Source: Anaerococcus senegalensis JC48
GTDB taxonomy: Bacteria > Bacillota > Clostridia > Tissierellales > Peptoniphilaceae
Assembly (NCBI RefSeq): GCF_000321005.1
Contig: NZ_HE578907.1
Location: forward strand, 825,824-869,459
DNA: 43,636 bases
Direction: 5' to 3'
Positions 29,076 to 43,636 of the stretch are shown here, in pieces; position 1 is the stretch's first letter; each line of letters starts with the position of its first letter. Under the pieces are notes generated by a model. The model was not told the origin of the DNA, searched no databases, and saw only the letters and a program-made list of their open reading frames with translations. The position numbers and the translations under genes were made by a program.

Positions 29076-30166
29076 TCGATCACCTTTTTAAAAATTTCTT
29101 TATCTTTTTCACTCATATTTTCATCCATTTTAAACTTATAAAACTCTTCAAAAACTTCCATAGTAGATAAATTTTCAAGGTCAATACTTATATCATCAGA
29201 ATTTTCCAAATCAATAGTATTTTTATACTTTATAGAAACAGCATGGGGAAATTTCATTTTTAATTTCGCCATGGGTGAATCTATAGGATGATCATCCTTT
29301 AAAATAAATTCTATATAGTCATTCGAATTTTCCATTTTTAAGATATTTTCAAAATAATCTTCAATTTGACAAAAATCATTTAAAGCTTTTATCTCTATTT
29401 CTTTTATAGAAATATGGTCTTTTAAATCTACTATAGTCACTGATTTTTTTTGCCTTCTTTCTGAAAATGAATATTTCATAAAGGTTCCACAGTATCTAAT
29501 TTTTTCATCTATCACAAAATGTTTTCTGTGAAGATGACCAAGGGCTACATAGTCAAAATTTTTAAATAAATTTGCATCCATAGCATCATTTCCACCTATT
29601 GTTAGAGGTTTTTCTCCCTCGATTTCTTCATCTTCATATGCTTTTTCATTTGCATAGCAGTGACTTATCAATACATTTCTATCTTTATAATCAATATTTT
29701 TTAGAAGTATCCTATATAAATCTGTAAAATTTTCTATATTTGAATCAATTTCATTTTTTGCCCTAGCTAGGGATATATAAGGAATAGGATAAAAATTAAC
29801 TTCGCCAAATTCATCTTCAAAAGTTAAAGATTCATCAAAAGAATTACCAAAAATATAATAAGAATTTTTTTCGAAAAAACTTTTAGAAATTTCAAGTCTT
29901 TTTCCTGAATCATGATTTCCAGAAATTGCTATAATTTTTTTCTTAAAATCAAAAATAATCCTATCAACAAAGTCAGAATATACTTTCATAGACTCGCTAT
30001 TTGGAATAGATGTATCAAAAATATCACCAGCTATAACGACTATATCTATTTTTTCACTTTTGATAATTTCTAAAATTTGGTCAAGGCAATATTTTTGATC
30101 TTCTAAAAGTGAATATGATCCTATATTTTTTCCTATGTGAAGGTCTGATAAGTGTAATAATTTCAT
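29072..30166 (-). CDS. sbcD: Exonuclease subunit SbcD (Mre11-like)
   Basis: 364-aa metallophosphoesterase. Metal-binding motifs in order: LSDLHIG (6-12), AGDIFD, SGNHDSG, SHCYAN and GHLHRKH. Forms the nuclease of the SbcCD complex. It overlaps yaaA and sbcC by 4 bp each, indicating translational coupling through the whole operon. Confidence 0.96.
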   Translation of the reverse strand: MKLLHLSDLHIGKNIGSYSLLEDQKYCLDQILEIIKSEKIDIVVIAGDIFDTSIPNSESMKVYSDFVDRIIFDFKKKIIAISGNHDSGKRLEISKSFFEKNSYYIFGNSFDESLTFEDEFGEVNFYPIPYISLARAKNEIDSNIENFTDLYRILLKNIDYKDRNVLISHCYANEKAYEDEEIEGEKPLTIGGNDAMDANLFKNFDYVALGHLHRKHFVIDEKIRYCGTFMKYSFSERRQKKSVTIVDLKDHISIKEIEIKALNDFCQIEDYFENILKMENSNDYIEFILKDDHPIDSPMAKLKMKFPHAVSIKYKNTIDLENSDDISIDLENLSTMEVFEEFYKFKMDENMSEKDKEIFKKVIE

Positions 30167-30885
30167 TTTTCTTCCCTTACATATATAAACTCATTGTCAG
30201 TTGAATTGTATGGGTCATAAATATAATTGCAAAGGATTATTTTTTTAATTTCTTCTGGGTCTTTGATTTTTTTGTTTATCAAATATTTAAGCATCCTACC
30301 ACGCATTTGTTTTGTATAAGAAACAATAGATCTTATTTTTCCGTTTCTATTTTCTTTAAATGTTAAAGTCAATAATTTTTGATCTTTTTTCAAATATTTT
30401 TTTATTAGCTTTGCATATTCAGCACTTGCCAAATTTATAATAAAATCTTCATCCTCAAAAGCCTTTTCGTAAATTTTATCAGCCCAAAATCCAGGCATAT
30501 CTATCCCTTTCGAATCCATATATAACCTATAATCAGATATTCCTGTAAAAGGCTTACAAAGTCCATAAAGAGCAGAAATTATATAAACATGATTATTTAA
30601 ATATTCCAAATCATTAAAATCTTCTTTTTTAAATTGTTTAAAAACAAGTCCATCATAAGAAAAAATTGCAGGGTTTTTTAAATTATTAAAATCAAAATCT
30701 TTGTAATCATAATAAGCTTTTATTGCTAAATCATCATTACAAGAAAACATATTTGCCAAATCATTTATAGAAAAACTCCTAAGTTTTTCGACCAAGTCTT
30801 TTGTTTCTTCTTCAAATAAAAGTCCTTCTGTTTTTTCATTTTCAAAATGTTTAAACCTTTTTGCAGGTGAAATTATTATTTTCAT
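30163..30885 (-). CDS. yaaA: Peroxide stress protein YaaA (UPF0246)
   Basis: 240 aa. Starts MKIIISPAKRF, the family signature, and has YDGLVFKQF and GLCKPFTGISDYRLYM typical of YaaA/DUF328. E. coli YaaA lowers free iron and DNA damage during peroxide stress and its fold binds DNA. Here it leads the sbcD-sbcC-addB-addA operon, which supports a DNA-damage role. RBS AAAGG before the ATG. Confidence 0.93.
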   Translation of the reverse strand: MKIIISPAKRFKHFENEKTEGLLFEEETKDLVEKLRSFSINDLANMFSCNDDLAIKAYYDYKDFDFNNLKNPAIFSYDGLVFKQFKKEDFNDLEYLNNHVYIISALYGLCKPFTGISDYRLYMDSKGIDMPGFWADKIYEKAFEDEDFIINLASAEYAKLIKKYLKKDQKLLTLTFKENRNGKIRSIVSYTKQMRGRMLKYLINKKIKDPEEIKKIILCNYIYDPYNSTDNEFIYVREEK

Positions 30886-30916
30886 ATCAAACCTTTCTAT
30901 TTTTAATTCTTAATTA

Positions 30917-30925
30917 ATTATATCA
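30917..30925 (-). promoter_or_regulatory. Extended -10 promoter of the yaaA-sbcDC-addBA operon
   Basis: Minus strand TGA-TATAAT (-10 hexamer at 30917-30922), about 30 bp before the yaaA ATG. The -35 region is a poly-T stretch belonging to the znuB terminator. No LexA or other operator seen. Confidence 0.55.
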
Positions 30926-30937
30926 TAGAAAATTTTC

Positions 30938-30966
30938 ACAAAAAAAAAGACAGGCGAACCTATCTT
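30938..30966 (-). terminator. Terminator overlapping the znuB stop codon
   Basis: Minus strand AAGATAGG, loop TTCG, CCTGTCTT with one G-U pair, then nine T. The UUCG tetraloop is very stable. The znuB stop (30960-30962) lies inside the 5' arm and loop. Confidence 0.85.
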
Positions 30967-31754
30967 TTAAAAATTTTTTGAATTATTAATGAAATTATCA
31001 TCCCAATAACAGCTATTACTACTATAGCGCCACCTGGTTTTATTCCCAAATAAAAACTTGCGCTAATTCCAGCCATCATATAAAATATTGCGATAATAAT
31101 TGATTTTATGAAAGTTTCCTTATAAGATTTTGAAATTAAAAGTCCACTTGCAACTGGCAAAACCATTAAAGATGAAATCATCAAGGCCCCAACAGTTTTT
31201 GCAGAAATTCCAATTGTTACTGCTGTCAAAAATGTAAAAATATTTGAAACTAATTTTGAATTAATTCCTGCCAAATTTGCCATTAATGGGCTAATTGAAT
31301 TATATAGAAGAGGATAGTAAAGATAAAGGCTAAAAAATAATACAAAAACAAAAATTACACTTACTACAATAAGGTCAGTTTTTGTAACACTTGTAATCGA
31401 ACCAAATAAAAATGATTCAAAACTTGTTCCACCAGGGGTGAAATCTGACATAATCGCTGCAAGTCCAATTCCCAAACTCATTATTATAGCTGTAGCCATA
31501 TCTCCAAAGTTTTTGAATTTTTTCCTAATTATTTCTATAGCAAAACTTGCAATAATACAAATTATTATGGATGAAAAAACTGGATTAATCCCAATAATTA
31601 AACCGAGTGCCACACCAGATAAAGCCGTGTGTGATAGGGCATCACCTATCATCGATGTCCTTCTATTCACCATAACAATTCCAATCATAGGAATTATTAT
31701 TGCAAGCATAAGCCCAACCAAAAGAGCTCTTTGCATAAATTCGTAACTAAGCAT
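30960..31754 (-). CDS. znuB: Zinc ABC transporter permease
   Basis: 264 aa with about eight membrane segments, ABC-3 family (ZnuB/AdcB/MntB). The motif GDALSHTALSGVALG (37-51) is characteristic, and GALMISSLMVLPVA is the conserved late helix. It overlaps the ATPase gene by 8 bp. Metal specificity is taken from the His-rich binding protein and the zinc-type regulator; manganese is the alternative. Confidence 0.93.
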   Translation of the reverse strand: MLSYEFMQRALLVGLMLAIIIPMIGIVMVNRRTSMIGDALSHTALSGVALGLIIGINPVFSSIIICIIASFAIEIIRKKFKNFGDMATAIIMSLGIGLAAIMSDFTPGGTSFESFLFGSITSVTKTDLIVVSVIFVFVLFFSLYLYYPLLYNSISPLMANLAGINSKLVSNIFTFLTAVTIGISAKTVGALMISSLMVLPVASGLLISKSYKETFIKSIIIAIFYMMAGISASFYLGIKPGGAIVVIAVIGMIISLIIQKIFKR

Positions 31755-32412
31755 CTACTATCCTTCCATTTTTAATTCTAATCTGCCTTTTTGAAAATTC
31801 TCTTACAATATCCATCTCATGAGAAATCATTAAAATTGAAATTTTATGTTTGTCATTTAAATTGGATAGAAGTTTAAGAAAGTCTCTTTTTGATTTTTCA
31901 TCAACACCAACGGTAGGCTCATCTAAAATAAGAAGATCAGGATCGTTGACCATTGCCCTTGCAATCATAACTTTTTGAGCTTGGCCTCCCGAAAGTTGAT
32001 TAAAGGGAATATTTAAAAGATTTTCTATATTTAAAATTTCAAAAATATTATAAACTTTTTTATAACATTTTTTTGTTGGTCTATTAAAAATATTAAATTT
32101 TTTATACAAATTTAAAACAACAAATTCTTTTCCAGTTACCGGAAAGGCTACTTTGTTTGCATCATTAACTTGAGGTACATATCCAATTTTAGAATAATCA
32201 TCAAATTTTTCAATGTCTTTTCCAAATAATTTTATTTGACCTGATTTTTTCTTCAAATCTTTTAAAATTAATTTTATGAGAGTAGACTTTCCAGAGCCAT
32301 TTTCGCCCTGGATTGTCAAAAAATCTCCCCTATTTAAATCAAAACTTAAATTTTTTAATATATTATCCTTGCCGTAAGAAAAGACTAAGTCTTTAACTTC
32401 TATATCCTTCAT
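31747..32412 (-). CDS. znuC: Zinc ABC transporter ATP-binding protein
   Basis: 221 aa. Walker A GENGSGKST (near 36-44), Q-loop IGYVPQ, signature LSGGQAQ, Walker B LLILDEPTVGVD, H-loop SHE. Belongs to the ZnuC/MntB-type ATPases. It starts directly after the znuA stop with no gap, within the znuA-znuC-znuB operon. Confidence 0.93.
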   Translation of the reverse strand: MKDIEVKDLVFSYGKDNILKNLSFDLNRGDFLTIQGENGSGKSTLIKLILKDLKKKSGQIKLFGKDIEKFDDYSKIGYVPQVNDANKVAFPVTGKEFVVLNLYKKFNIFNRPTKKCYKKVYNIFEILNIENLLNIPFNQLSGGQAQKVMIARAMVNDPDLLILDEPTVGVDEKSKRDFLKLLSNLNDKHKISILMISHEMDIVREFSKRQIRIKNGRIVDA

Positions 32413-33516
32413 CTATTTTAAACTACTTTCCATTAATTCTAAGTTTTCTTTTATCATTTCTTGATAAGTTTTATTAGCTTTCAAATCGTTATTACTTGCA
32501 TATTCTATAGTATTTATAGCCTTTGCGTCAAGTGATAATTCATTTGCTAAGGTCTTAACATTTTTATCAGAACCACCTTTTTCATAGAAAAGTGCTGAAA
32601 TTTTTTCTTTTTTAACATAGTCAATGGAATCTTTCATTGTTTTTGCATCAGTTTCACTTGTTGAAGTTATTGAAGTAAGTGGAATTTGAGTTAAACCATA
32701 ATCACGAGCAAGATATGAAAATGCTTCATGATCTACTAAGAATTTTTTATTTTCTTTATTTTCTAATTTATCTCCATATGTTTTATCAATTTCTTCAAGT
32801 TCTTTTTTTATTTTTTCAAAATTTCTCATATAATAATCTTTATTTTCTGAATCAATTTCTGAAAGTTTATCTGCAATATTTTTTGCTTGAATAATTCCAT
32901 TTTTTGGTGCTAACCAAATATGTGGATCATACATACCATGGTGGTGATGTTCTTCTTCATCTTCGTGATCATGGTGGTCAGAGTCTTCACTATCTTCCAT
33001 GCTTTCATGGTCATGGTTGTCTTTGTCTTCGTGGTCGTGATGATCACTATCTTTATCTTCTTGTGATCCTTCATGATCATGATGGTCACTATCTTCGTGG
33101 TCATGATCTTCTTCATCTTCAGTTTTTATTAAATCAATTCCCTTAGATGTATCAACCATTTCTACTTTTGAAGCATCTTCAACCTTATCTTTCCAAGATT
33201 CAAGACCTGCACCATTTAAAAATAAAACCTTAGCATCAGATAATTTCGCCATATCTTTTGCTGATGGTTCAAAATCATGAACTTCTGTATTTAAATTTGT
33301 AAAAGATTCTACATTAAATTTATCTCCAGCTATTTGTTTAGTTAGATTATAAATTGGATAAAAAGAAGCATATATAGTTTCTTTTGTAGATTTTTCACTT
33401 TGTTTTGTTTCGTTTGAACTGTTTGAATCATTTGAGTTACTTGTTTGGTTATTTTTTGCACATCCTGTTACAAAAAGGCCCAAAACTAAAGCTATCGCTA
33501 AAAATTTTTTTTTCAT
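32413..33516 (-). CDS. znuA: Zinc-binding lipoprotein ZnuA with long His-rich loop
   Basis: 367 aa. Lipoprotein signal with lipobox VTGC (C19), Ser/Asn-rich tether, then a cluster A-I solute-binding fold. Zinc ligands are expected at H80 (TEVHDFEPS), H199 (MYDPHIWL), the later VDHEAFSYLA and an acidic residue near the C-terminus. Between the first two ligands lies an acidic His-rich loop (133-194) with 17 histidines, including three copies of SDHHDHE. Such loops mark zinc-specific binding proteins. RBS AAGGAGG. The promoter carries a Fur-family-type palindrome. Confidence 0.95.
   Translation of the reverse strand: MKKKFLAIALVLGLFVTGCAKNNQTSNSNDSNSSNETKQSEKSTKETIYASFYPIYNLTKQIAGDKFNVESFTNLNTEVHDFEPSAKDMAKLSDAKVLFLNGAGLESWKDKVEDASKVEMVDTSKGIDLIKTEDEEDHDHEDSDHHDHEGSQEDKDSDHHDHEDKDNHDHESMEDSEDSDHHDHEDEEEHHHHGMYDPHIWLAPKNGIIQAKNIADKLSEIDSENKDYYMRNFEKIKKELEEIDKTYGDKLENKENKKFLVDHEAFSYLARDYGLTQIPLTSITSTSETDAKTMKDSIDYVKKEKISALFYEKGGSDKNVKTLANELSLDAKAINTIEYASNNDLKANKTYQEMIKENLELMESSLK
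32935..33120 (-). repeat. In-frame imperfect repeats coding for the ZnuA His loop
   Basis: Degenerate tandem units (gat/cat-rich) encode HDHE-type blocks; SDHHDHE is encoded three times. The region is compositionally distinct from the rest of the gene and is not a CRISPR array: units are irregular, without spacers, and stay in frame. Confidence 0.7.
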
Positions 33517-33530
33517 TTTTTCCTCCTTAA

Positions 33531-33547
33531 TTGCAAATCATTTGCAA
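33531..33547. promoter_or_regulatory. Predicted Zur box
   Basis: TTGCAAAT-C-ATTTGCAA, a perfect 8-1-8 palindrome. The core TGCAAAT-N-ATTTGCA has the 7-1-7 arrangement of Fur-family operators. It lies 6-22 bp downstream of the znuA -10 on the minus strand, where bound regulator would block initiation. Confidence 0.75.
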
Positions 33548-33552
33548 GAAGT

Positions 33553-33580
33553 ATTATATAACTGTTTTATTTTTTGTCAA
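33553..33580 (-). promoter_or_regulatory. znuA promoter
   Basis: Minus strand: perfect -35 TTGACA (33575-33580), 16-bp spacer, perfect -10 TATAAT (33553-33558). A strong promoter followed at once by the predicted Zur box fits tight zinc repression. Confidence 0.85.
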
Positions 33581-33582
33581 TA

Positions 33583-33591
33583 TGATATTAT
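33583..33591 (+). promoter_or_regulatory. Extended -10 of the Fur-family gene
   Basis: TGA-TATTAT (33583-33591) with no clear -35. It sits just past the znuA -35, so the divergent promoters are interlocked, while the Zur box is on the znuA side. Confidence 0.45.
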
Positions 33592-33610
33592 AAATTAAGA
33601 GGTGAATTTT

Positions 33611-34033
33611 TTGAAAGCAAGAGATTTATTAAGAAATAAAAATATTAGAGTCACAGAAAAAAGAAGAATTATTTTAGAAAAAATAATTGAAAATAATGAT
33701 CCAATTTCAGCAGAAGAAATTTTAGAAAAATTAAAAAATGATAAGATAAATCTAGATCTTTCTACAATTTATAGAAATTTAAATACACTTGAAGAAGTAG
33801 GACTTCTCTTAAAAAACACAAACCTAGATGGAATTTCATATTTTCAATTAAACACAAATGATCACAAACATTTTATTACTTGCATGTCTTGTAATAAGAA
33901 ATTTATTATAGAAAACTGCCCAATTCATGAAGTTGAAAAGCAAATTGAAAAAGAAACAGGATTTATTATCAAAGGACATAGTTTTGAATTTACAGGAATT
34001 TGCCCAAATTGCCAAAAAAAATTAAATAAATAA
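33611..34033 (+). CDS. zur: Fur-family transcriptional regulator, probably Zur
   Basis: 140 aa from a TTG start. N-terminal winged helix (RVTEKRRIILEKI, then DLSTIYRNLNTLEEVGLL) and C-terminal metal-binding domain with DHKHF, CMSC and CPNC, the two CxxC pairs of the structural zinc site. The TTG at 33611 has AGAGGTG six bases upstream; the GTG at 33602 is part of that RBS and is a worse choice. Divergence from the zinc importer and the palindrome between them make Zur the likely identity; PerR or Fur cannot be excluded by sequence alone. Confidence 0.9.
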   Translation: MKARDLLRNKNIRVTEKRRIILEKIIENNDPISAEEILEKLKNDKINLDLSTIYRNLNTLEEVGLLLKNTNLDGISYFQLNTNDHKHFITCMSCNKKFIIENCPIHEVEKQIEKETGFIIKGHSFEFTGICPNCQKKLNK

Positions 34034-34037
34034 ATTT

Positions 34038-34073
34038 AAAAAGTTGATAAAAATTTTTTTATCAACTTTTTTT
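34038..34073. terminator. Bidirectional terminator between zur and the symporter
   Basis: AAAAAGTTGATAAAAA (about 34038-34053) and TTTTTATCAACTTTTT (34056-34071), a perfect stem with T-runs on both strands. Confidence 0.85.
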
Positions 34074-34075
34074 CT

Positions 34076-35347
34076 TTAAACTCTCTTATTAAATTTTTCT
34101 TTATCAAATGAACCTACAGAATTTGCAACTATCATTGTTCCAGATGCATCTCCTGTTGTATTTATTGCAGTTCTTGCCATATCTAAAATTCTATCTATTC
34201 CCATTATCATAGCAATTCCTTCTACTGGAAGACCAGCTGATGATAATACCATTGATAGTGTTACAAGACCAACTGAAGGAATTCCTGCAGTTCCTACTGA
34301 TGCTATTGTTGCTGTCAAAATTACAGTCATATAATCATTTAAGCTTAAATCTATTCCATAAGCATTTGCAATAAATACTACCGCTACTCCTTGCATTATT
34401 GCAGTTCCGTCCATATTTATTGTCGCTCCCAAAGGAATTGTAAATGAAGAAATTTTCTTATCAACTCCAATATCTTCAAGAGTTTGAATATTTAATGGAA
34501 CTGTTGCATTTGATGATGCAGTTGAAAATGCAAAAGTCATAACTGGAAAAAATTTTTTCAAAAACGAAAATGGATTTACTCTTACAAAAATCGTTAAAAG
34601 TAGCATATAAACTATTAAAAGTTGGAAAGCTAGTCCCAAAATTACAGAAATCATATATGATAACATTGATAAAATAACATCATAACCAAGATTTGAAAAT
34701 GTTCTTGCTATTAAGAAAAATACTCCAATTGGTGCAAGTTTCATTACAGCCATAGTCATACTCATCATTAAATCATTCATTTCTGTAATTATATTGCCCA
34801 ATGTTTCCATTCTATCTTCCATTCCTGCAATCAAAAGTCCAACTATAACTGCAAAAATTATTATTTGTAACATATCACCCTTTGCCAAAGCTTCAATAGG
34901 ATTTGTTGGAATCATATTTAATAGCGTATCTTTCATTGAAGTTTTTTCTCCAGTATCCATTTTAAACTCATTAGATCCCAATTCCATATTCATTCCCTTA
35001 CCAGGATTTATTATTGATGCCAAAGAAAGAGCTATTATTATTGCAAGAGCTGTAGTTAAAAGATAAAATAAGACAATTCTTATTCCAACTTTTCCAAGAG
35101 TTTTTGTATCCCCCATATTTCTACAGCCATCAGCAATTGAAAAAAATACCAATGGAACAACTAGCATTTGCATAGCTCTTATGAACATTTGACCTAATAA
35201 ATAAAAAATTCCATCAATTATAATGTCATCTTTGATATGACTTTTAGGTACAAAATAATGCATTAGAATTCCAAGAATCATTCCACAAATTAGGGCGATA
35301 AAAATTTTAGATGTTAAGCTTAACTTTTTATCAGATTTAGCTTTCAT
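34076..35347 (-). CDS. Dicarboxylate/amino acid:cation symporter (DAACS, GltP-like)
   Basis: About 423 aa with eight membrane helices and two re-entrant loops. The hairpin motif ASSNATVPLN and the helix-7 motif GATINMDGTA are those of glutamate/aspartate and C4-dicarboxylate symporters (GltP, DctA, SstT relatives). It imports an acidic or neutral amino acid with Na+ or H+; which one is not readable. Starts at the ATG at 35347, which has GGGAG at proper spacing; the ATG two codons earlier abuts the RBS. It overlaps the upstream RmlD-like gene by 11 bp. Confidence 0.9.
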   Translation of the reverse strand: MKAKSDKKLSLTSKIFIALICGMILGILMHYFVPKSHIKDDIIIDGIFYLLGQMFIRAMQMLVVPLVFFSIADGCRNMGDTKTLGKVGIRIVLFYLLTTALAIIIALSLASIINPGKGMNMELGSNEFKMDTGEKTSMKDTLLNMIPTNPIEALAKGDMLQIIIFAVIVGLLIAGMEDRMETLGNIITEMNDLMMSMTMAVMKLAPIGVFFLIARTFSNLGYDVILSMLSYMISVILGLAFQLLIVYMLLLTIFVRVNPFSFLKKFFPVMTFAFSTASSNATVPLNIQTLEDIGVDKKISSFTIPLGATINMDGTAIMQGVAVVFIANAYGIDLSLNDYMTVILTATIASVGTAGIPSVGLVTLSMVLSSAGLPVEGIAMIMGIDRILDMARTAINTTGDASGTMIVANSVGSFDKEKFNKRV

Positions 35348-36188
35348 ATCCATACTCCCTTCTCAGATAATCTTTTAAAGAATCTTCCCAAGATGAAAAA
35401 GTATTTTTTCCCAAAAGACCCAAAAAATAATTATCTATTCCTCTAAAGGCAGGTTCGTAATCAATCCTATCAGAATCTCTAACTTCTTCTACCTTTGCAT
35501 CAATTTTTGTTATATCAATAATTTTTTGAGCAAAAGCTCTAAAAGAACAAGTTCCTTCACATGAAGCATGGTAAATTCCATAAGCATTAGTTCCTATAAT
35601 TGAAATTAAAAATTTTGAAAGTTCATATGCCGAAGTTGGAGATCCATATCTTGATTTTGGTACTTTTACAAGTCCATTTTTTGCTTGTTCTATTATTGAT
35701 TCTATTAAATTATTTTCTTTAGAATAAAGTCTTGATACTCTTACAATAAAATATCTATCAGCAAAATCTTTTACAAATTCTTCTCCCAAAAATTTACTTT
35801 TTCCATAAACTGAATTTGGATTTGCCTTGTCAATTTCTTTGTATGGATGAATTGTTTGTCCATCAAAAACATCTGCAGTAGATAATTGAACAAGTTTTGC
35901 CCTTACCCTATTTGATGCTATAGCAATATTTTTTGCTCCCAAAGCATTTAACAAATATGCTTTATCAGGATCATTTTCACATTTTAATCTATTTGTAATT
36001 CCTGAACAATTAATTATTATTTTTGGTCTATTTCTATCTACAAATAAATTTACTTCTTCTTGTTTTGTAATATCTACTTCGTCCTTGTCAGTTGCAATTA
36101 TTTCAGCTTCCAAAGGATCTAAATATCTTAGAAGAGTCGAACCAAGTCTTCCATGTGCTCCTGTAATCCAAATTGTGTTAATTCTCAT
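35337..36188 (-). CDS. RmlD-like sugar-nucleotide reductase (extended SDR)
   Basis: 283 aa. NAD(P)-binding motif GAHGRLG near the N-terminus, then YxxxK as YGKSKFLGEEFV, with STADVFDG and NCSG motifs as in dTDP-4-dehydrorhamnose reductase (RmlD). No other rml genes or glycosyltransferases are present, so a true rhamnose role is uncertain. I chose the ATG at 36188: AAAGGA upstream and the Rossmann strand begins there. An upstream ATG at 36260 would add 24 residues without family similarity and would run through the promoter. Confidence 0.82.
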   Translation of the reverse strand: MRINTIWITGAHGRLGSTLLRYLDPLEAEIIATDKDEVDITKQEEVNLFVDRNRPKIIINCSGITNRLKCENDPDKAYLLNALGAKNIAIASNRVRAKLVQLSTADVFDGQTIHPYKEIDKANPNSVYGKSKFLGEEFVKDFADRYFIVRVSRLYSKENNLIESIIEQAKNGLVKVPKSRYGSPTSAYELSKFLISIIGTNAYGIYHASCEGTCSFRAFAQKIIDITKIDAKVEEVRDSDRIDYEPAFRGIDNYFLGLLGKNTFSSWEDSLKDYLRREYGYES

Positions 36189-36231
36189 AAATTTTTCCTT
36201 TCTATATTGTAAAAAATTAAATATATGTTTT

Positions 36232-36240
36232 ATTATAACA
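36232..36240 (-). promoter_or_regulatory. Extended -10 promoter of the RmlD-like gene
   Basis: Minus strand TGT-TATAAT (-10 hexamer 36232-36237). No good -35. The rest of the 36189-36305 gap is AT-rich with no other signal I can support. Confidence 0.55.
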
Positions 36241-36304
36241 TATTGCAAATTATTTTTCATTTATATTTGTTAATTATCTTGATTTCTAATTAAATTATTT
36301 AATC

Positions 36305-36331
36305 AAATAAAAAAAGCTAGTAAAACTAGCT
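36305..36331 (-). terminator. Terminator of the pur operon, overlapping the purD stop
   Basis: AGCTAG (36315-36320), loop TAAAA, CTAGCT (36326-36331); on the minus strand followed by seven T. The purD stop (36330-36332) lies in the stem. Confidence 0.8.
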
Positions 36332-37574
36332 AATTTAATCCTATATCTTTTCTATAATATTTATTTTCGTAACTTATTTTTTCACAATCATCATAGGCGA
36401 TTTTTCTTGCAAGCTCTAAAGTTTTTGCTTTAGAATTTATTGTAAGAACTCTTCCCCCATTTGTCAAAATTTTTCCATTTTCTAATTTAGTTCCATTATG
36501 AAAAATTAATGAATTTTTTACATCTTCGAGTCCAATTATTTCTTTATTTTTTTCATATTTTAATGGATAACCATCAGAAACGAGAATTAATGATAGTGAA
36601 TAATCACTAGACCATTTGATATCATCTTTCTTTAAAGTCTTATCAAGAGCTTTTTCTATAATTTCTACAAGGTCTGATTCAAGTCTTGGCATTAAGGTTT
36701 CTGTTTCTGGATCTCCAAATCTTACATTAAATTCTAATACTTTTGGTAAATCATTATCTATCATAAAACCAATAAATAAAATTCCATTGTAAGAAAGTTT
36801 TGAATTATTAAAACCATATTCAATTTGTTTTAATATTTTTTCTATATTTTTTTCTGTTTTTTCAGAAAATTTACTAGGAGAATATGTACCTACTCCTCCA
36901 GTATTTGGTCCCTTATTCCCATCATAAATTTGCTTGTGATCTTTGCAAGTTTCTAATGGAAATAATTTATTATTTGAAATCAAACACAAAACAGATGCCT
37001 CTTCACCTTTTAAGAATTCTTCTATAACAACAGTTTTTCCTTCATCTCCAAATATTTTTTTATTAAAAATATCATCTAAACTCTCAAGAGCTTTTTTCTC
37101 ATCCTCACAAATTATAACTCCTTTTCCAAGACAAAGCCCATCAGCTTTTATTACTAAAGGATAAGAAAAATCTTTTAATGAATCTTTAGCATCGTCATAA
37201 TTATCAAAAGATTTATATTTTGCCGTCGGTATATTATATTTTTCTAAAAAGTTTTTGGTAAATTTTTTTGATTTTTCAAATTTCGCACATTCTTTATTTG
37301 GTCCAAAAATTCTAAGGTTATTTTTTTCAAATTCGTCTACTATTCCCATACATAGAGGATCTTCAGGACCTACAATTGTTAGACCTATCTTTTCTTTTTT
37401 TGAAAAATCAACCAATGATTTTATATCAGTTGGATCAATATTAATATTTGTACAAAAAGAATTTGTTCCTGCATTTCCCTTTGCCATAAAAATTTGATCT
37501 ACTTTTTTTGATTGTGATATTTTCCATGCTAAAGCATGTTCTCTTCCACCATTTCCAATTATTAAAACTTTCAT
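36330..37574 (-). CDS. purD: Phosphoribosylamine-glycine ligase PurD (GARS)
   Basis: 414-aa ATP-grasp enzyme, step 2 of purine synthesis: phosphoribosylamine + glycine + ATP to GAR. Starts MKVLIIGNGGREHALAWK; has the ATP-grasp motifs PLVIKADGLCLGKGV and EFNVRFGDPETE. The ATG at 37574 (AGGAG six bases upstream) overlaps the purN stop as TGATG; the TTG one codon earlier is not needed. Last gene of the operon. purH, usually between purN and purD, is absent. Confidence 0.96.
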   Translation of the reverse strand: MKVLIIGNGGREHALAWKISQSKKVDQIFMAKGNAGTNSFCTNINIDPTDIKSLVDFSKKEKIGLTIVGPEDPLCMGIVDEFEKNNLRIFGPNKECAKFEKSKKFTKNFLEKYNIPTAKYKSFDNYDDAKDSLKDFSYPLVIKADGLCLGKGVIICEDEKKALESLDDIFNKKIFGDEGKTVVIEEFLKGEEASVLCLISNNKLFPLETCKDHKQIYDGNKGPNTGGVGTYSPSKFSEKTEKNIEKILKQIEYGFNNSKLSYNGILFIGFMIDNDLPKVLEFNVRFGDPETETLMPRLESDLVEIIEKALDKTLKKDDIKWSSDYSLSLILVSDGYPLKYEKNKEIIGLEDVKNSLIFHNGTKLENGKILTNGGRVLTINSKAKTLELARKIAYDDCEKISYENKYYRKDIGLN

Positions 37575-38200
37575 CAAAGACTCCTATTTTTTACAAAAAC
37601 CTTATTATCTTTTATGTAAAATAAATCATCACAAAAATCTTTTACAGATTTTGTCAAAATTTCATGTTCTTTATCCAAAACTTTTTTTGCAATATCATCA
37701 ATTGTATCTTCTTGGTCGATTTCTACAATTTCTTGATAAATTATTGGGCCAGCATCAGCATCTTTGGTAACAAAATGTGTTGTAGCTCCTGTGAATCTTA
37801 CACCTTTTTCAAAAACTTTCTCGTGAACTTTTCTTCCATAAAATCCAATACCACAAAAAGATGGTATTAGAGATGGATGAATATTAATTATCTTTGATTC
37901 GTATTGACCAATAATTTTTTGAGGTAAAATTTTGAGATAACCGGCAAGAACAACAAGATCTATATGTTCTTTTTTTAAAGTATCAAGTAATAAATCATTA
38001 TCTGTACAAACCATTGTTTTTATAGATGATTTTTTTGCTCTTTCAAGTCCATAAGCTTCTTTTTTGTTTGAAATAACTATTGAAATTTGACCATTTATTT
38101 CTCTTTTTCCACACGCATCAATTATAGCTTGAAGATTTGTTCCAGATCCTGATATTAATATGGCAATTTTTTTAAAATTTGAGGTCGATTTTTTTATCAT
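37574..38200 (-). CDS. purN: Phosphoribosylglycinamide formyltransferase PurN
   Basis: 208 aa, step 3, transfers formyl from 10-formyl-THF to GAR. ILISGSGTNLQAII near the N-terminus, catalytic INIHPSLIPSF (Asn and His), and DADAGPII (catalytic Asp). The start at 38200 lies inside purM (27-29 bp overlap), with GGAG about 12 bases upstream, a somewhat long spacing; no better start is visible. The overlap implies translational coupling. Confidence 0.94.
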   Translation of the reverse strand: MIKKSTSNFKKIAILISGSGTNLQAIIDACGKREINGQISIVISNKKEAYGLERAKKSSIKTMVCTDNDLLLDTLKKEHIDLVVLAGYLKILPQKIIGQYESKIINIHPSLIPSFCGIGFYGRKVHEKVFEKGVRFTGATTHFVTKDADAGPIIYQEIVEIDQEDTIDDIAKKVLDKEHEILTKSVKDFCDDLFYIKDNKVFVKNRSL

Positions 38201-39197
38201 TTTCTACAATTTCTCCAAGATCTAATAATTCATTATTATCAATTATTTCTTTTACTATTTCTACATATTTCTCGTCTACTGCAAAAACTAATCCTACTCC
38301 CATATTAAAAGTTTCGTACATATCTTTTTTATCAAGATTTCCCCATTTTTGTAAAAGTGAAAATATTTTTGGAGCTTCTACATTTGTAAGGTCAATTTTT
38401 GCACAAAGTCCATCTGGAATCATTCTTGGAATATTTTCATAAAATCCACCACCAGTTATATGACTTAGGCCATTGATTTCAATTTTATCAAGTAAGGCTA
38501 AAATTTCTTTAACATAAATCTTGGTTGGCTTTAATAATTCTTCACCAAGACTTCTTTCAAGTCCTTCAATTTTTTGATCTAAGGATAATTTTTCTTTTTC
38601 TAAAACAATTTTTCTTACAAGAGAATAGCCATTTGAATGAATTCCTGAAGATCTTAAACCAAAAATATGGTCTCCTTTTTTTATTTTTTCTCCAGTAATT
38701 ATTTTTTCCCTATCAACTATTCCTACACAAAATCCTGCAAGATCATAGTCATTTTTCTTATAAAGACCCGGCATTTCTGCAGTTTCTCCACCAATCAGAG
38801 AAGATTTTGCTTCAAGACAACCATCAGCAACACCTTTTACAATTTTTTCCATTTTTTCAGGAATAAGTTTACCACATGCAATATAATCTAGAAAAAATAA
38901 AGGTCTTGCACCTTGACAAAGTATATCATTTACACACATTGCCACACAATCAATTCCAATTGTATCGTGTTTGTCCATCATTTGGGCAAGCATAACTTTT
39001 GTTCCAACTCCATCAGTCCCAGATACTAAAACTGGATTTTTTATATCTAAATTTTCAAGACTAAAAAGTCCAGAAAATCCTCCAAGTTTACTTAATACAT
39101 TTTTTGATTGAGTTTTTTCTACAATATTTTTAATTAATTCTACTTCTTTTTGACCATTTTCTACATTAACACCGGCATCTTTATAATTTATTGACAT
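38172..39197 (-). CDS. purM: Phosphoribosylformylglycinamidine cyclo-ligase PurM (AIRS)
   Basis: 341 aa, step 5, closes the imidazole ring to AIR. MSINYKDAGVNVENGQ at the N-terminus, GTDGVGTKVMLAQ, CVAMCVNDILCQGARPLFFLDY-type core and GGETAEMPG are all conserved. Starts 1 bp after the purF stop. Its usual substrate-provider PurL is not in this window. Confidence 0.97.
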   Translation of the reverse strand: MSINYKDAGVNVENGQKEVELIKNIVEKTQSKNVLSKLGGFSGLFSLENLDIKNPVLVSGTDGVGTKVMLAQMMDKHDTIGIDCVAMCVNDILCQGARPLFFLDYIACGKLIPEKMEKIVKGVADGCLEAKSSLIGGETAEMPGLYKKNDYDLAGFCVGIVDREKIITGEKIKKGDHIFGLRSSGIHSNGYSLVRKIVLEKEKLSLDQKIEGLERSLGEELLKPTKIYVKEILALLDKIEINGLSHITGGGFYENIPRMIPDGLCAKIDLTNVEAPKIFSLLQKWGNLDKKDMYETFNMGVGLVFAVDEKYVEIVKEIIDNNELLDLGEIVENDKKIDLKF

Positions 39198-39198
39198 T

Positions 39199-40482
39199 TT
39201 ATTTCCTTTCTAAAGGGTTAAATCCATCAAAACAATTTTCATAATATGTTTTGTTTCCACAAGCTTCTCTTAATCCTTCTAGAGAAATAAATCCCAAAGA
39301 ATCTGCTCCAATTATTTCTCTTACTTCTTCTACACTTCTATTACTGCTAATTAAATGTTCTTTATCAGCTACATCAAATGTATATTTTTCTTCTTTTACA
39401 ACTTGAGGAGAGGAAATTCTAACATGGACTTCTTTTGCGCCTGATTCTCTTAGTATTTCTATTACTCTTTTCATGGTATTTCCTCTTACAATAGAATCAT
39501 CAACAAGCACAACTCTTTTTCCTTCCAAAAGATGTTTTATAGGATTTAACTTTATTTTTATTCCTTTTTTTCTCATTGAATCTGTTGGAAGAATAAATGT
39601 TCTATTTATATACCTATTTCTAACAATAGCTCTTTCATATTTTATGTTTGAAGCGCGAGAAAATCCTACTGCAGAAATAAGTCCACTGTCGGGACTTCCT
39701 ACAACAATATCCGCATCAACAGGATGTTCTTTATAAAGAATCTCTCCCATTTTAATTCTTGCATCATAAACACTAATACCATTTATACATGAATCAGGTC
39801 TAGCTGTATAAACAAAATCAAAAATACATGGAGAATTTGAAATTTCTTTTGTAAAATATGATTTTTCTCCATTCTTATCTACTATATAAATTTCTCCAGG
39901 TTTTAATTCATGGCAAAGCTCTCCACCAATAGATTCTATTGCACATGATTCACTAGCTACTATATAATTATCATTATTTTTTCCTACGCAAAGGTTTTTA
40001 ATTCCATAATGATCTCTAACAGCAATCATTCTTTCATCACTTAAAACTAAAAGCGAATATACGCCATTTAAATTATTGACATACTCAATAATTTCGTCTA
40101 TATTTTTTGAATTTAAATTATTGACAATTTCTTCTGGAGAATTTTCATTAAAAAATTTTCCATCAATAGCTATTAAATTTTTATGATTTGAATTTTTTGG
40201 ATAAAACATCCATGGCATTGGCAATAGTGATCTATCATCTTCAGCAAACATATATTTTACATGACCTAGACCAACATTTCCTGAAAGAGTTGATATATTA
40301 TCAAGACTAATATTATTTGCAATTTCTCCCTTACCTCTTATTTCTGATAATTTTTCATGAGAAAGCAAAGAAATTCCCATAGCTTCCTGTCCTCTATGTT
40401 GAATAGCATAGAGGGCAGAATAAAGATCTGGGAATATATTTTTATAATTTTTTTTTGAAAATATTCCTACAATTCCACTCAT
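39199..40482 (-). CDS. purF: PurF-like amidophosphoribosyltransferase with degenerate glutaminase domain
   Basis: 427 aa, shorter than the usual 460-510. Catalyses PRPP to phosphoribosylamine, step 1. The C-terminal half is standard: SPDSGLISAVG, KYERAIVRNRYINRTFI and the PRPP loop VVLVDDSIVRGNT (324-336). The N-terminal Ntn-hydrolase half keeps HRGQ (29-32) but starts MSGIVG instead of MCGIVG. Lys76 and Phe79 replace the glutamine-site Arg and Thr (GHVKYMF for GHVRYPT), Asp107 replaces Asn in the HNGN motif, and the TTSDSE segment is missing. It therefore looks NH3-dependent. Frame upstream of the ATG closes at once, so no other start rescues a cysteine. Cys residues for an Fe-S cluster are also incomplete. 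Confidence 0.9.
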   Translation of the reverse strand: MSGIVGIFSKKNYKNIFPDLYSALYAIQHRGQEAMGISLLSHEKLSEIRGKGEIANNISLDNISTLSGNVGLGHVKYMFAEDDRSLLPMPWMFYPKNSNHKNLIAIDGKFFNENSPEEIVNNLNSKNIDEIIEYVNNLNGVYSLLVLSDERMIAVRDHYGIKNLCVGKNNDNYIVASESCAIESIGGELCHELKPGEIYIVDKNGEKSYFTKEISNSPCIFDFVYTARPDSCINGISVYDARIKMGEILYKEHPVDADIVVGSPDSGLISAVGFSRASNIKYERAIVRNRYINRTFILPTDSMRKKGIKIKLNPIKHLLEGKRVVLVDDSIVRGNTMKRVIEILRESGAKEVHVRISSPQVVKEEKYTFDVADKEHLISSNRSVEEVREIIGADSLGFISLEGLREACGNKTYYENCFDGFNPLERK

Positions 40483-40484
40483 TA

Positions 40485-40964
40485 TTAATTTGCCTTATAT
40501 TCATATTCAGAATTATCTATAGTTTCTTTCATTTTAACTCTCATATCCTTTAATTTTTCTCTTAAAGAATCATATTTTACTGAAAGAATTTCTATAGCTA
40601 AAATTGCAGCATTTTCACCACCACCAATTGCAACTGTCGCAACTGGAACTCCACTTGGCATTTCAACTGTAGAAAGTAGGGCTTCAATTCCTCCAAGATG
40701 AGATGATTTTGCAGGAATTCCTATTACAGGTCTTGTTGTTAAAGCTGCAATTACACCTGATAAATGAGCAGCTTTTCCTGCAATTCCAATATAAACTTCA
40801 CTTTCTTCTTCGCTTTCTTTTACATATTTTTCTAAACTTTTTAAAGCTCTGTGGGCAGAAATTACCTTAACTTCATAATCAATACCAAATTCCATTAATT
40901 TAGAAACAACTTTATCAGCAATTGGGCTATCAGACAGTGATCCCATAATTATAGAAACTTTCAT
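40485..40964 (-). CDS. purE: 5-(carboxyamino)imidazole ribonucleotide mutase PurE
   Basis: 159 aa. IIMGSLSDSPIA at the N-terminus, SAHRAL, GIAGKAAHLSGVIAALT, IPAKSSHLGGIEALLS and the C-terminal GGGENAAILAIEIL are PurE motifs. It resembles class I enzymes, which use N5-CAIR from PurK, yet no purK is here and several residues (KAAHLSG, SAHRALKS) are slightly off, so a direct-CO2 enzyme is not excluded. 12 bp after purC, 2 bp before purF. Confidence 0.93.
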   Translation of the reverse strand: MKVSIIMGSLSDSPIADKVVSKLMEFGIDYEVKVISAHRALKSLEKYVKESEEESEVYIGIAGKAAHLSGVIAALTTRPVIGIPAKSSHLGGIEALLSTVEMPSGVPVATVAIGGGENAAILAIEILSVKYDSLREKLKDMRVKMKETIDNSEYEYKAN

Positions 40965-40976
40965 ATAAACTCCTTA

Positions 40977-41657
40977 TTAAAGTCCTAAATATTTAGATAA
41001 TTCCATTGGTTCAATATAAGTTCCATCTTTATATGCTCTCATATTTCCACCAGAAACTTCATCAATCAAAACAACTTCACCAGTTGAAGCAAGTCTTCCC
41101 CATTCAAACTTAATATCATAAAGATCAAGTCCGTGCTCAGCTAAAATGTCTTTTACAAGTTTTGCAACTTTTTTATTTTCTTCAATAATTTCTTTATATT
41201 CATCATGAGATAAAATATTTAATTCAACTAATCCATCTTCAGTAATAAGTGGATCTTCACGATCATCATCTTTTAAAGTAATTTCAGAATAAGCATCAAG
41301 GTCTTGACCTTCTGTTGCATAAAGTCCATATCTTCTCATAAAAGATCCAACAGCTTTAAATCTTGTAATAACTTCTAAACCTTTTCCAAAAACTGTACAT
41401 TTTTCAATTTCCATAAGATTTTTATCAAGATCAGCTCCAAGATAATGAGTTTTTACACCAGCTTCATTTATTTTTTCAAAGAAAAATTTAGAAACTTTTA
41501 AACATTCAGCACCGGCACCTTCTTTTTCACCAGCAACTTGATTTCCACCTGTATCAAATACTCCATCAGTTCCTGTCATAGTATCCTTGAATAAACAAAA
41601 GTATTTTCCATTTTCTTCAACTAAATTTTTTGTCTTACCTTCGTAAATTGTGTTCAT
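40977..41657 (-). CDS. purC: SAICAR synthase PurC
   Basis: 226 aa. YEGKTKNLVE near the N-terminus, VFGKGLEVITRFKAVGSFMRRYG-type core (about 75-97), DDREDPLITED, and LYDIKFEWGR with VLIDEVSGGNMR are PurC signatures. Adds aspartate to CAIR. First gene of the operon, with TTAAGGAG before the ATG and a riboswitch-terminator leader upstream. Confidence 0.96.
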   Translation of the reverse strand: MNTIYEGKTKNLVEENGKYFCLFKDTMTGTDGVFDTGGNQVAGEKEGAGAECLKVSKFFFEKINEAGVKTHYLGADLDKNLMEIEKCTVFGKGLEVITRFKAVGSFMRRYGLYATEGQDLDAYSEITLKDDDREDPLITEDGLVELNILSHDEYKEIIEENKKVAKLVKDILAEHGLDLYDIKFEWGRLASTGEVVLIDEVSGGNMRAYKDGTYIEPMELSKYLGL

Positions 41658-41682
41658 TTTTTTCTCCTTAAAAATTTTTTTA

Positions 41683-41732
41683 CAAAAAATAAGCCCAGAA
41701 GGACAGGCTACGAAACCTATCCTCCTGGGCTT
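41683..41732 (-). terminator. Leader terminator before purC
   Basis: A 17-bp stem on the minus strand (41732-41716 with 41707-41691), two G-U pairs, 8-nt loop, then ATTTTTT. Its 5' arm begins with GCCCAGGAG, which belongs to the 3' part of the aptamer, so aptamer and terminator should exclude one another. Confidence 0.88.
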
Positions 41733-41820
41733 TTATCCCTCTGGTGTAATACTTAAAAATATCCGTACCGCTCGGTCTTGAAAAAACAGATCCCTAGGTA
41801 CACTTTCGCCCATTTCTATG
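41716..41820 (-). ncRNA. ykkC-family riboswitch, probably PRPP-sensing (subtype 2b)
   Basis: The minus-strand leader of purC contains the ykkC-type core in order: GTGTACCTAGGGATCTG (41803-41787), AAGACCGAGCGGTACGG (41779-41763), and AGAGGGATAAAAGCCCAGGA (41742-41723), close to the ykkC/yxkD consensus (CUAGGG, CCGAG, GGGAUAAAAGCCCGGGAG). Subtypes bind guanidine, ppGpp, PRPP and others; in front of purC-E-F-M-N-D the PRPP subtype fits best. PRPP binding would keep the 3' strand in the aptamer and prevent the terminator, an ON switch. No guanine aptamer is seen next to it. Confidence 0.82.
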
Positions 41821-41843
41821 AGCCATATTCTTCGTTCATGTTC

Positions 41844-41872
41844 ATAATACCAAGCCTAATTTTAATTGTCAA
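41844..41872 (-). promoter_or_regulatory. Promoter of the pur operon
   Basis: Minus strand: perfect -35 TTGACA (41867-41872), 17-bp spacer, -10 TATTAT (41844-41849) with TGG in front (extended -10). The start would be near 41837, giving a leader of about 180 nt. The 41658-41966 gap thus holds leader, promoter and, on the other strand, the DUF4230 gene promoter. Confidence 0.85.
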
Positions 41873-41911
41873 GAAAGTTTTTTGATAAAATTTATTTTTA
41901 TAATTTATAAC

Positions 41912-41939
41912 TTGTAAATTACCCTATTTGAGATAAAAT
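41912..41939 (+). promoter_or_regulatory. Promoter of the DUF4230-like gene
   Basis: TTGTAA (41912-41917), 16-bp spacer, TAAAAT (41934-41939), then RBS GAAAGGA before the ATG at 41967. Confidence 0.6.
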
Positions 41940-41966
41940 AATTAAGAGAAAAAGAAAGGATTTAAA

Positions 41967-42560
41967 ATGATTAAAAAGAAAAGTTTAATTAAAAATATTG
42001 TTATAGCAATTCTTTTATTAGCTACAATTCTTTTTGGCTTTAAATATTTTTCATCACGAAATGAAAATAAAATCGACAATAAATTAATCCAAAATAGAAT
42101 AGAAAATGCCAAGGAACTTACAAGTTTAAAATATTCATACACAAACATGGGACAATTCGAAAATTCAAATAAGTTTTATGGATATGATATACCATTTACT
42201 CAAAAAAAATTCATCGTTTCTTATGATGGTATGATTTCTTGTGGAGTAGATCTTGATAAAATGGATGTAAAAGTATCAGCTAAGACCATAAATATAAAAT
42301 TACCAAAATCAAAAATTTTATCACATGAAATATATGAAGATTCCCTAAAAATTTTCGACCAAAAAACTTCAATTTTCAATCCTATAAAAGTAGAAGATTA
42401 TAATGATTTTGCAAAAAAACAAAAAAAATCTGTAGAAAAAAAAGCAATTGAAAAAGGAATCTTAATAGAAGCAAATAAAAAATGTGAAAAAGCAATAAAA
42501 GAAATAATAAATATAGACAATAGTTTAGAAGATTATACAATAAATATACAATTTAAATAA
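41967..42560 (+). CDS. DUF4230-like membrane-anchored protein
   Basis: 197 aa. A single N-terminal membrane segment (about residues 10-28, basic residues before it), so the rest should be outside the cell. ELTSLKYSYTNMGQFENSNK and FIVSYDGMISCGVDL fit DUF4230, a domain of unknown function. The C-terminus is Lys-rich and helical. RBS AAAGGA. Divergent from the pur operon. No function is known to me. Confidence 0.75.
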   Translation: MIKKKSLIKNIVIAILLLATILFGFKYFSSRNENKIDNKLIQNRIENAKELTSLKYSYTNMGQFENSNKFYGYDIPFTQKKFIVSYDGMISCGVDLDKMDVKVSAKTINIKLPKSKILSHEIYEDSLKIFDQKTSIFNPIKVEDYNDFAKKQKKSVEKKAIEKGILIEANKKCEKAIKEIINIDNSLEDYTINIQFK

Positions 42561-42580
42561 GGGTTTACCCTTATTTTTTT
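42555..42580 (+). terminator. Terminator overlapping the DUF4230 gene stop
   Basis: AAATAAGGG (42555-42563), loop TTTA, CCCTTATTT (42568-42576) and a T-run to 42580. The stop TAA (42558-42560) is inside the stem. Confidence 0.82.
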
Positions 42581-42581
42581 A

Positions 42582-42590
42582 TGCTATAAT
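42582..42590 (+). promoter_or_regulatory. Extended -10 promoter of the deoxyribosyltransferase gene
   Basis: TGC-TATAAT (42582-42590), directly behind the previous terminator; no good -35. Confidence 0.55.
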
Positions 42591-42611
42591 AAATACATGA
42601 AAGGTGGTAAT

Positions 42612-43121
42612 ATGAAAATATATTTAGGTTGTGACTTATTTACAGAAGGACAAAGATGGCAAGCTTTAGAAATTCAAAAAGCATTGGAAAAAGAATTTTC
42701 TGATATAGAAATTTATAATCCAGCACAAAATTTAGAAATAAATGATAAATCAGCAGGATTTACAACAAATTACGATATACTTTTGGCTGATTATGAGAGA
42801 CTTAAAAATTCTGATATTCTAATAGGATTAATGGATACAAAAGATTTGGGACTTGCTGCAGAAATGGGAATAGCCTTTGAAAGAAAAATCCAAATTTTTC
42901 AACTCTACACTGACATTAGACTGGGTGGAAATGACAAAGAAGATAAATTTGATCCAATGAAAAAAGATATTTTTCAAAATGATTTTTTATATATAAATAA
43001 ACTTGTAACAGGACTTTCCTATGTTGACAAAAATGGAAACAAATTCAAAAGACCAAGAATTTATAAGACAAAAGAAGATTTGATAGAAGATTTGATTTTG
43101 TATATAAAAGAAAATAGATAA
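42612..43121 (+). CDS. Nucleoside 2-deoxyribosyltransferase
   Basis: 169 aa. MKIYLGCDLFTEGQRWQA at the N-terminus and DILLADYERLKNSDILIG, then GLAAEMGIAFE with the catalytic Glu, match the family that exchanges bases between deoxyribonucleosides for salvage. I chose the ATG at 42612, which follows AAAGGTGG with four bases between; the ATG at 42597 lies before that RBS. Single-gene unit near the pur operon, consistent with purine salvage. Confidence 0.88.
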   Translation: MKIYLGCDLFTEGQRWQALEIQKALEKEFSDIEIYNPAQNLEINDKSAGFTTNYDILLADYERLKNSDILIGLMDTKDLGLAAEMGIAFERKIQIFQLYTDIRLGGNDKEDKFDPMKKDIFQNDFLYINKLVTGLSYVDKNGNKFKRPRIYKTKEDLIEDLILYIKENR

Positions 43122-43143
43122 AAAGACTGTAAGATAAAACTTC

Positions 43144-43177
43144 CCCAAAAAGTAAGCCTAAAAACTAACTTTTTGGG
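43144..43177. terminator. Possible terminator between convergent genes
   Basis: CCCAAAAAGT (43144-43153) pairs with ACTTTTTGGG (43168-43177). No clear T-run follows on either strand, so it may be a weak bidirectional terminator or only an inverted repeat. Confidence 0.45.
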
Positions 43178-43206
43178 CAAATCTAAAATTTATACAAATT
43201 TTTTTC

Positions 43207-43461
43207 CTATTTAAATAATCCAACCAAAGTATCACTTATCTTATCTTTTATAATATCTAGGTTTCCAATTTCATTTTTTAATTGATCAACTAATTGGTCT
43301 CTACTTTCCTTGTCATCAACATTTTTAATTTTATCAAATAAATCTTTTTGCCATCCATCTTCTGAATCATTGTTTTCTTTTTTGAAAGCTTGAACAAATT
43401 CATCTACATATAATTTCTTATCTTGAACCATTTTTTCTATAACTTTTTCAATTTCGCTCAT
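43207..43461 (-). CDS. Unrecognised 84-aa acidic helical protein
   Basis: Not recognised. Soluble and predicted helical, rich in Asp, Lys and Glu, with one Trp (DGWQKDLFDKI). RBS AAAAGGAG before the ATG at 43461 supports a real gene. No membrane segment, signal or cysteine. It is alone and its promoter is not clear. Confidence 0.65.
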   Translation of the reverse strand: MSEIEKVIEKMVQDKKLYVDEFVQAFKKENNDSEDGWQKDLFDKIKNVDDKESRDQLVDQLKNEIGNLDIIKDKISDTLVGLFK

Positions 43462-43611
43462 AATAACTCCTTTTAAAATAAATTCATTAAATAAATACCC
43501 AATAATTTGTAAATCAATCTGTTACTAAAATTTTTTATTGATTAAAAGCAAACACAATAATATAATGGAAATATTGAAAATTTCAAAAAGTTATAAAACG
43601 TAACAAAATCA

Positions 43612-43636
43612 AAACTACCAGCTTAGCTGGTAGTTT
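43612..43636 (-). terminator. Hairpin at the window edge, probably the terminator of a gene to the right
   Basis: AAACTACCAGC (43612-43622), loop TTA, GCTGGTAGTTT (43626-43636), an 11-bp perfect stem. On the minus strand it is followed by TTGATTTTG, weakly T-rich. In the 43462-43611 gap I see only AT-rich sequence. Confidence 0.5.

Follow-up and report, generated by a model that had tools for sequence, protein, structure and literature searches.

The purF-type gene analysed here lies in a 43,636-nucleotide stretch of Anaerococcus senegalensis JC48 (contig NZ_HE578907.1, positions 825,824 to 869,459; this whole stretch is called the window), and its 427-aa product is probably (probability about 0.82) an amidophosphoribosyltransferase without glutamine hydrolysis, which would make phosphoribosylamine from phosphoribosyl pyrophosphate (PRPP) and free ammonia. 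The following were observed: (i) loss of the nucleophile and of glutamine-binding residues, (ii) an intact PRPP loop, (iii) purifying selection, (iv) no second copy, (v) a purine operon context, and (vi) the predicted fold; that ammonia is the only donor, and its source and route of entry, are what we infer. The original prediction of an NH3-dependent enzyme was supported as far as sequence reaches, while its description of the glutaminase site as erased was too simple: the site was lost, but Ser1 and Asp101 were fixed in many relatives and had arisen repeatedly. The protein is the most extreme case of decay within a broader stepwise change, which in other families also reached PurL and GuaA.

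The minus strand at purF was a single 427-aa open reading frame (ORF), and the plus strand there was riddled with stops. The N terminus MSGIVGIF confirmed the earlier reading of codon 2 as Ser (AGT), and an earlier start could not supply a Cys: the upstream stop lay only four codons (GKLI) before the ATG, with no in-frame Cys among them. The residue numbers and roles used here are those that we take, following the original prediction, to hold for Escherichia coli PurF, Arg73 presumably binding the glutamine carboxylate and Asn101 presumably being the oxyanion-hole Asn. Aligned with the intact PurF of genome G060, the window PurF had Ser1, Lys73, Asp101, Gly102, and Pro127 at the key positions, and both motif changes noticed earlier were found against relatives (GHVKYMF for GHVRYS and AIDGK for AHNGN). 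The deletion claimed for the TTSDSE segment stood in part: about 16 residues were gone between the HNGN and TTSDSE equivalents, but TTSDSE was not wholly lost and remained as ENSPEE (the protein reads ENSPEEI), with Pro at the Asp127 position. The gap was placed identically in three MAFFT modes because the sequence from G132 (MIIIDGKIIN) bridged it; phmmer pairwise alignment and one small alignment (window read as SKHKP) located it elsewhere, and a version deleting HNGN outright was dropped on the agreement of the three MAFFT modes. Compared to PurF of the Bacillus subtilis type (TIGR01134, EC 2.4.2.14), the window PurF lacked Cys1, Arg73, Asn101, Asp127, and about 16 residues, and it scored 347.3 bits, slightly below the cut-off of 350. 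A second full purF, which would have told against the original prediction, was looked for and not found in the assembly (99.76% complete), the sole other match (E 7e-4) covering residues 348-424 only.

The window PurF had the predicted two-domain fold of an N-terminal nucleophile (Ntn) domain plus a phosphoribosyltransferase domain, the N-terminal Ntn fold being predicted as kept. Its PRPP loop and flexible loop were present, and DDSIVRG was invariant in 48/48 aligned PurFs. Two of the four Cys positions aligning with what we take to be [4Fe-4S] ligands were altered in the window PurF, and two or three of the four were altered in 9/9 window-type sequences versus 0/21 intact ones. Both domains of window-type PurF were under purifying selection, with a ratio of nonsynonymous to synonymous substitution rates (dN/dS) of 0.13 for the N-domain, well below 1; the N-domain value was about 0.04 in the five close Ser1/Asp101 pairs measured.

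The same signature was found in six further Anaerococcus genomes at 85-92% identity (named window-type records: A. hydrogenalis, A. ihuae, two of A. vaginalis, A. obesiensis, and A. jeddahensis), which together with the dN/dS of 0.13 agreed with the earlier argument that a point error would not explain the changes. Peptoniphilus raoultii PurF (65% identity) had Ser1/Asp101 and the same deletion, and the PurF of G132 also grouped with the window-type sequences. Altogether 115 PurF sequences were read, each from a different genome among the 178 searched (G000-G177). The sample was enriched for suspect families: f2, f4, f6, f13, and the window's own family were fetched on purpose, and each other family gave zero to three rows (none of f3 and f16, and one of the large family f19); in the window's family, the PurFs of G004, G081, G117, G157, G163, and G175 were not fetched or were split. 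Ser1 with Asp101 was present in 70/115, Cys1 with Asn101 in 22 (all intact), Cys1 with Asp101 in 13, and Cys1 with Ser101 in one; five had a Met-Phe start and hence no Cys, four had Gly1, and Ser1 with Asn101 occurred in none of the 115. Arg73 and Asp127 were both retained in 55 of the 70 Ser1 PurFs (P. raoultii being counted among the 55 on an uncertain alignment at 127). Close relatives with an intact Cys2 (Cys1 in E. coli numbering), which the original prediction had named as evidence against it, were not found in the same genus (Cys1 in 0/28 readable PurFs); seven intact PurFs were found in other genera of the family.

Several PurFs departed from these types. L047, L048, L049, L059, and L060, all of the same genus, started with MFGIWN, carried Trp and His at positions 73 and 127, respectively, and kept Asn101; in this type the glutaminase site was lost by another route. 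L063, L291, and L298 (from G036, G101, and G143) were very divergent PurFs starting with MGAFFG or MGGFFG. G125 and G155 (family f4, genus g55) gave two PurF matches each, of which the profile start marked one as Cys-type and the other as Ser-type; of these copies, only G125's Ser-type one was read. An outside control was composed of 30 genomes from the other orders in the class, of which five had been selected on unusual PurL results and 25 had not. A class-wide PurL scan served only for choosing genomes. PurF was intact in 25/28 (G229 unread and G410 without a match). The remaining three were Ser1/Asp101, and without exception they belonged to family f60 and to the five selected genomes. Two of these three loci from another order (L329, L330, and L331) adjoined a PurL-type motif in which Gly replaced Cys.

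Asp101 and Ser1 had each arisen more than once. The full PurF tree, built without seven partial or very divergent rows, required at least seven changes at residue 101 and at least nine at residue 1; Fitch counting with reversals allowed gave Asn to Asp four times and Cys to Ser five times. On a carefully built tree combining 29 sequences of family f1 with eight from outside, one shared origin of Asp101 within f1 was rejected (all Asp101 rows in one clade: approximately unbiased [AU] test, p 6e-43), and so was each of three pairings of Asp101 groups in the family f1 tree (p 0.0065, 8e-8, and 4e-4); the groups had been defined after viewing a quick tree, which makes the AU p values somewhat flattering. 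On these sequence comparisons, there were three or more origins of Asp101 within family f1. Ser1 was encoded by AGY in 66/70 and by TCN in 4/70, and in family f6 both Ser codon types stood alongside Cys1 relatives, which fits separate events. Genus g3 had three Cys1/Asp101 sequences and one Ser1/Asp101 sequence, which fits Asp101 first; the data suggest that Asn101 changed to Asp before Cys1 changed to Ser. The window type had additionally lost Arg73 and Asp127, and a loop was deleted there.

The comparison was also applied to four other glutaminases. PurL, in almost every case the large fused form, was examined in 99 genomes: its glutaminase Cys was lost in 44, and the triad was intact in 55. 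Four of the 99 (all PurL intact) were without a PurF read, and the remaining 95 were distributed as follows: (i) PurL intact in 17/17 with intact PurF, (ii) PurL lost in 8/11 with PurF keeping Cys1 but otherwise altered, (iii) PurL lost in 36/60 with Ser1, and (iv) PurL intact in 7/7 with other PurF types. A tree-aware pair test of PurL versus PurF had too few pairs and gave p 1. The GuaA Cys was changed in 15/38 genomes (14 Gly and one Glu) and kept in 23, with 12 of the 38 having been chosen for low scores. All 15 GuaA-changed genomes were also PurL-lost, and PurL and GuaA losses occurred only where PurF was already altered. GlmS kept Cys1 in 22/22 full-length copies, by which a general loss of class II glutaminases was rejected, and PyrG, present in 16/28 genomes, kept its Cys in 16/16; among PurF, PurL, GuaA, GlmS, and PyrG, glutaminase loss was thus confined to the purine pathway. 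As side observations, PyrG (the synthase of cytidine triphosphate) was not found in any of the 11 genomes tested of genus g1, including G000, and G021 (L103:559-5457) encoded a 1633-aa PurD-PurL fusion (PurD, residues 3-410; PurL, residues 413-1628), ORFs of 1630-1655 aa in other genomes suggesting the same fusion.

The proposed mechanism is as follows. The phosphoribosyltransferase half would join PRPP and free ammonia into phosphoribosylamine; the ammonia, probably supplied by amino-acid fermentation, would enter via the former glutamine pocket, which may still cap the ammonia channel, and the N-domain would be retained to serve as a scaffold, a wall of the channel, and a lid coupled to PRPP. 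In other families of the order, where PurL and, in some of them, GuaA have lost their glutaminase too, de novo purine synthesis would be moving stepwise towards ammonia. According to PMC3261824, replacing Cys1 of E. coli PurF by Ser or Ala leaves no detectable glutamine activity but still allows the use of ammonia, and PMC3035230 gives ammonia from threonine and serine in most strains of Anaerococcus prevotii, with peptones as the energy source.

Several points weigh against the proposal. Its entry route has competitors: PMC12017579 also has ambient NH3 used at the transferase site, with a front channel, and PMC4655335 proposes for human carbamoyl phosphate synthetase 1 (CPS1) an alternative path bypassing the old glutaminase site. 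Tree-aware tests of the Ser1/Asp101 pair had too few independent pairs for significance (median p 0.125), although every informative pair pointed the same way. The N-domain dN/dS in the window type was double that of the C-domain, which is compatible with relaxed constraint too. Glutamine supply tracked the change only weakly: glutamine synthetase was not found in 16/45 genomes by a search with the catalytic domain alone, which only partly matches type III enzymes, and PurF was altered in 15/16 genomes without a match versus 18/29 with one (Fisher p 0.033, uncorrected for kinship), G095 being a counterexample with intact PurF and no glutamine synthetase found. Since the window genome itself encoded a type III glutamine synthetase, its altered PurF is not explained by a shortage of glutamine, and glutamine auxotrophy as the cause there was unsupported. 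The glutaminase residues of PurL, GuaA, and GlmS were intact in the window genome, which still makes and can use glutamine; the first purine step alone is changed.

What Asp101 and Ser1 mean is a separate question. We conjecture that together they form an NH4+-binding site at the channel mouth, because the pairing is exclusive, arose repeatedly, and survived in the window type after the amino-acid-binding residues were lost. A wider reading, offered tentatively and at distinctly less than even odds, is that the order converts purine synthesis from glutamine to ammonia in the fixed order PurF, PurL, GuaA, with Asp101/Ser1 repeatedly selected as an ammonium-capturing channel mouth; if true, no purine step would need glutamine in some lineages. 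Neutral decay is a serious rival whose chances are not far short of even: amid plentiful ammonia the glutaminase would be unneeded and its site would drift, Asp101/Ser1 being tolerated without new function. This concerns only the meaning of the two residues and is compatible with an NH3-only enzyme. It accords with the further losses in the window type (Arg73, Asp127, the loop, and two Fe-S ligand positions), with the twofold dN/dS of its N-domain, and with the other routes to loss (Phe start plus Trp at 73 in five genomes, and Gly at position 1 in four sequences), but drift sits poorly with Asp101 in 70/70 Ser1 PurFs, with at least three origins inside one family, with the dN/dS of about 0.04 in the five close pairs, and with the 55/70 that keep both Arg73 and Asp127 (P. 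raoultii by the uncertain alignment at 127).

These same 55 PurFs are claimed by two other explanations. As Arg73 and Asp127 presumably bind the amino-acid part of glutamine, the N-domain may have turned into an amino-acid sensor regulating the transferase half; this is improbable, given that both residues were altered in 7/7 window-type Anaerococcus PurFs, whereas Ser1, Asp101, and Gly102 stayed. Alternatively, Ser1 may be a working nucleophile, as Ser presumably is in other Ntn hydrolases, so that glutamine or another amide is still hydrolysed. This is very improbable: an oxyanion should be destabilised by Asp in the oxyanion hole, Arg73 and Asp127 are also lost in the window type, and the E. 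coli Cys1-to-Ser enzyme had no detectable glutamine activity (PMC3261824). A separate glutaminase feeding NH3 in trans, like PurQ for small PurL, would have precedent in the split arrangements that presumably exist among other amidotransferases; it is nevertheless quite improbable, the six operon genes matching purine families only and visual inspection of the ORFs in window 29000-43636 having turned up no glutaminase (no genome-wide search for free glutaminases was made). Sequencing error, contamination, or a pseudogene has a practically negligible chance and is contradicted by relatives: the changes recurred in seven Anaerococcus genomes, six under named records, P. raoultii shared Ser1/Asp101 and the deletion, the frame was open, and dN/dS was well below 1.

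Among enzymes known to have lost such a function, 1jgt and 1q15 (beta-lactam and carbapenam synthetases), presumably Ntn-fold relatives without glutaminase function, differ from PurF in having another acceptor domain, and they are not known to use ammonia. The CPS1 glutaminase has an unrelated triad-type fold; CPS1 also differs in catalysing another reaction and in being one enzyme rather than several of one pathway. With the nucleophile lost, the acceptor site intact, and the domain under selection, the window PurF shows the marks of a CPS1-like case: human CPS1 has its glutaminase Cys changed to Ser, keeps the inactive domain, and takes free ammonia as substrate (PMC4655335), and PMC7657897 gives convergent cases in fish. 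Like the window PurF, the crenarchaeal PurF' paralogues described in PMC3261824 are related to PurF, lack the N-terminal Cys, and cluster with purine genes, and that paper has already suggested an ammonia-dependent PRPP aminotransferase; PurF', however, accompanies an intact PurF and frequently carries Ala or Val, and the same paper places a Ser-type paralogue of Methanocorpusculum labreanum again alongside an intact copy. The window PurF, unlike PurF', was the single full-length purF match in its genome, and its change was Ser1 with Asp101. Searches of open-licence PubMed Central showed no report of a bacterial PurF of this type present as the sole copy, nor of a recurring Asp101/Ser1 pair or nested PurL and GuaA loss.

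The window purF stood in a purine operon ordered purC-E-F-M-N-D (Table 1), its purC being a divergent form far below the NCBIfam cut-off. This order was common to six Anaerococcus records, with purD more distant in P. raoultii; other same-genus PurFs had 35-43% identity to the window PurF (two methods), and the loci examined differed in gene order. The window PurM was 58-62% identical to PurM of G041, G056, G042, and G044, all outside the family, and 47-56% identical to the PurMs matched in six non-window-type loci of its own family. Because its PurM is closer to the four outside genomes than to its own family, these identities suggest that the operon was acquired from outside the family, no donor being named; in the PurF tree the window clade attached to the f4/f6 group with support 80, and attachment to f1 was not rejected (p 0.363). 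Elsewhere in the window, by eye, 32413-33516 encoded a metal-binding lipoprotein with a long His/Asp/Glu-rich stretch, adjoining ATP-binding cassette genes and a Fur-like regulator, and 42597-43121 encoded a 174-aa ORF without an NCBIfam match that resembled nucleoside deoxyribosyltransferase.

Table 1. Features of the purine operon and of the purF-type gene in the window
Feature	Position	Strand	Remark
purD	36330..37577	-	NCBIfam profile match
purN	37574..38200	-	NCBIfam profile match
purM	38172..39197	-	NCBIfam profile match
purF-type gene	39199..40482	-	427 aa, without working glutaminase site
Phosphoribosyltransferase domain	39199..39831	-	Residues 218-427
PRPP loop	39475..39513	-	VVLVDDSIVRGNT, intact
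N-terminal Ntn (former glutaminase) domain	39832..40482	-	Residues 1-217, border approximate
Deletion junction	40135..40149	-	About 16 residues deleted; Pro116 replacing Asp127
Asp107	40162..40164	-	Replacing Asn101; Gly102 retained
Lys76	40255..40257	-	Replacing Arg73
Codon 2	40477..40479	-	AGT, Ser replacing catalytic Cys1
purE	40485..40964	-	NCBIfam profile match
purC	40977..41657	-	TIGR00081, 91.9 bits (cut-off 189.9)

In textbook de novo purine synthesis, glutamine is spent at PurF, PurL, and GuaA. Here this dependence was apparently dropped stepwise, with the same two PurF substitutions recurring. The natural series from intact PurF through Asp101 alone and Asp101 plus Ser1 to the stripped site presents the conversion of a channelling enzyme to free ammonia, which has otherwise been approached through single mutants. 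Many genomes of the order are probably misannotated where PurF, PurL, or GuaA is labelled glutamine-dependent, and glutamine analogues aimed at the altered PurF, PurL, and GuaA should not act on them.
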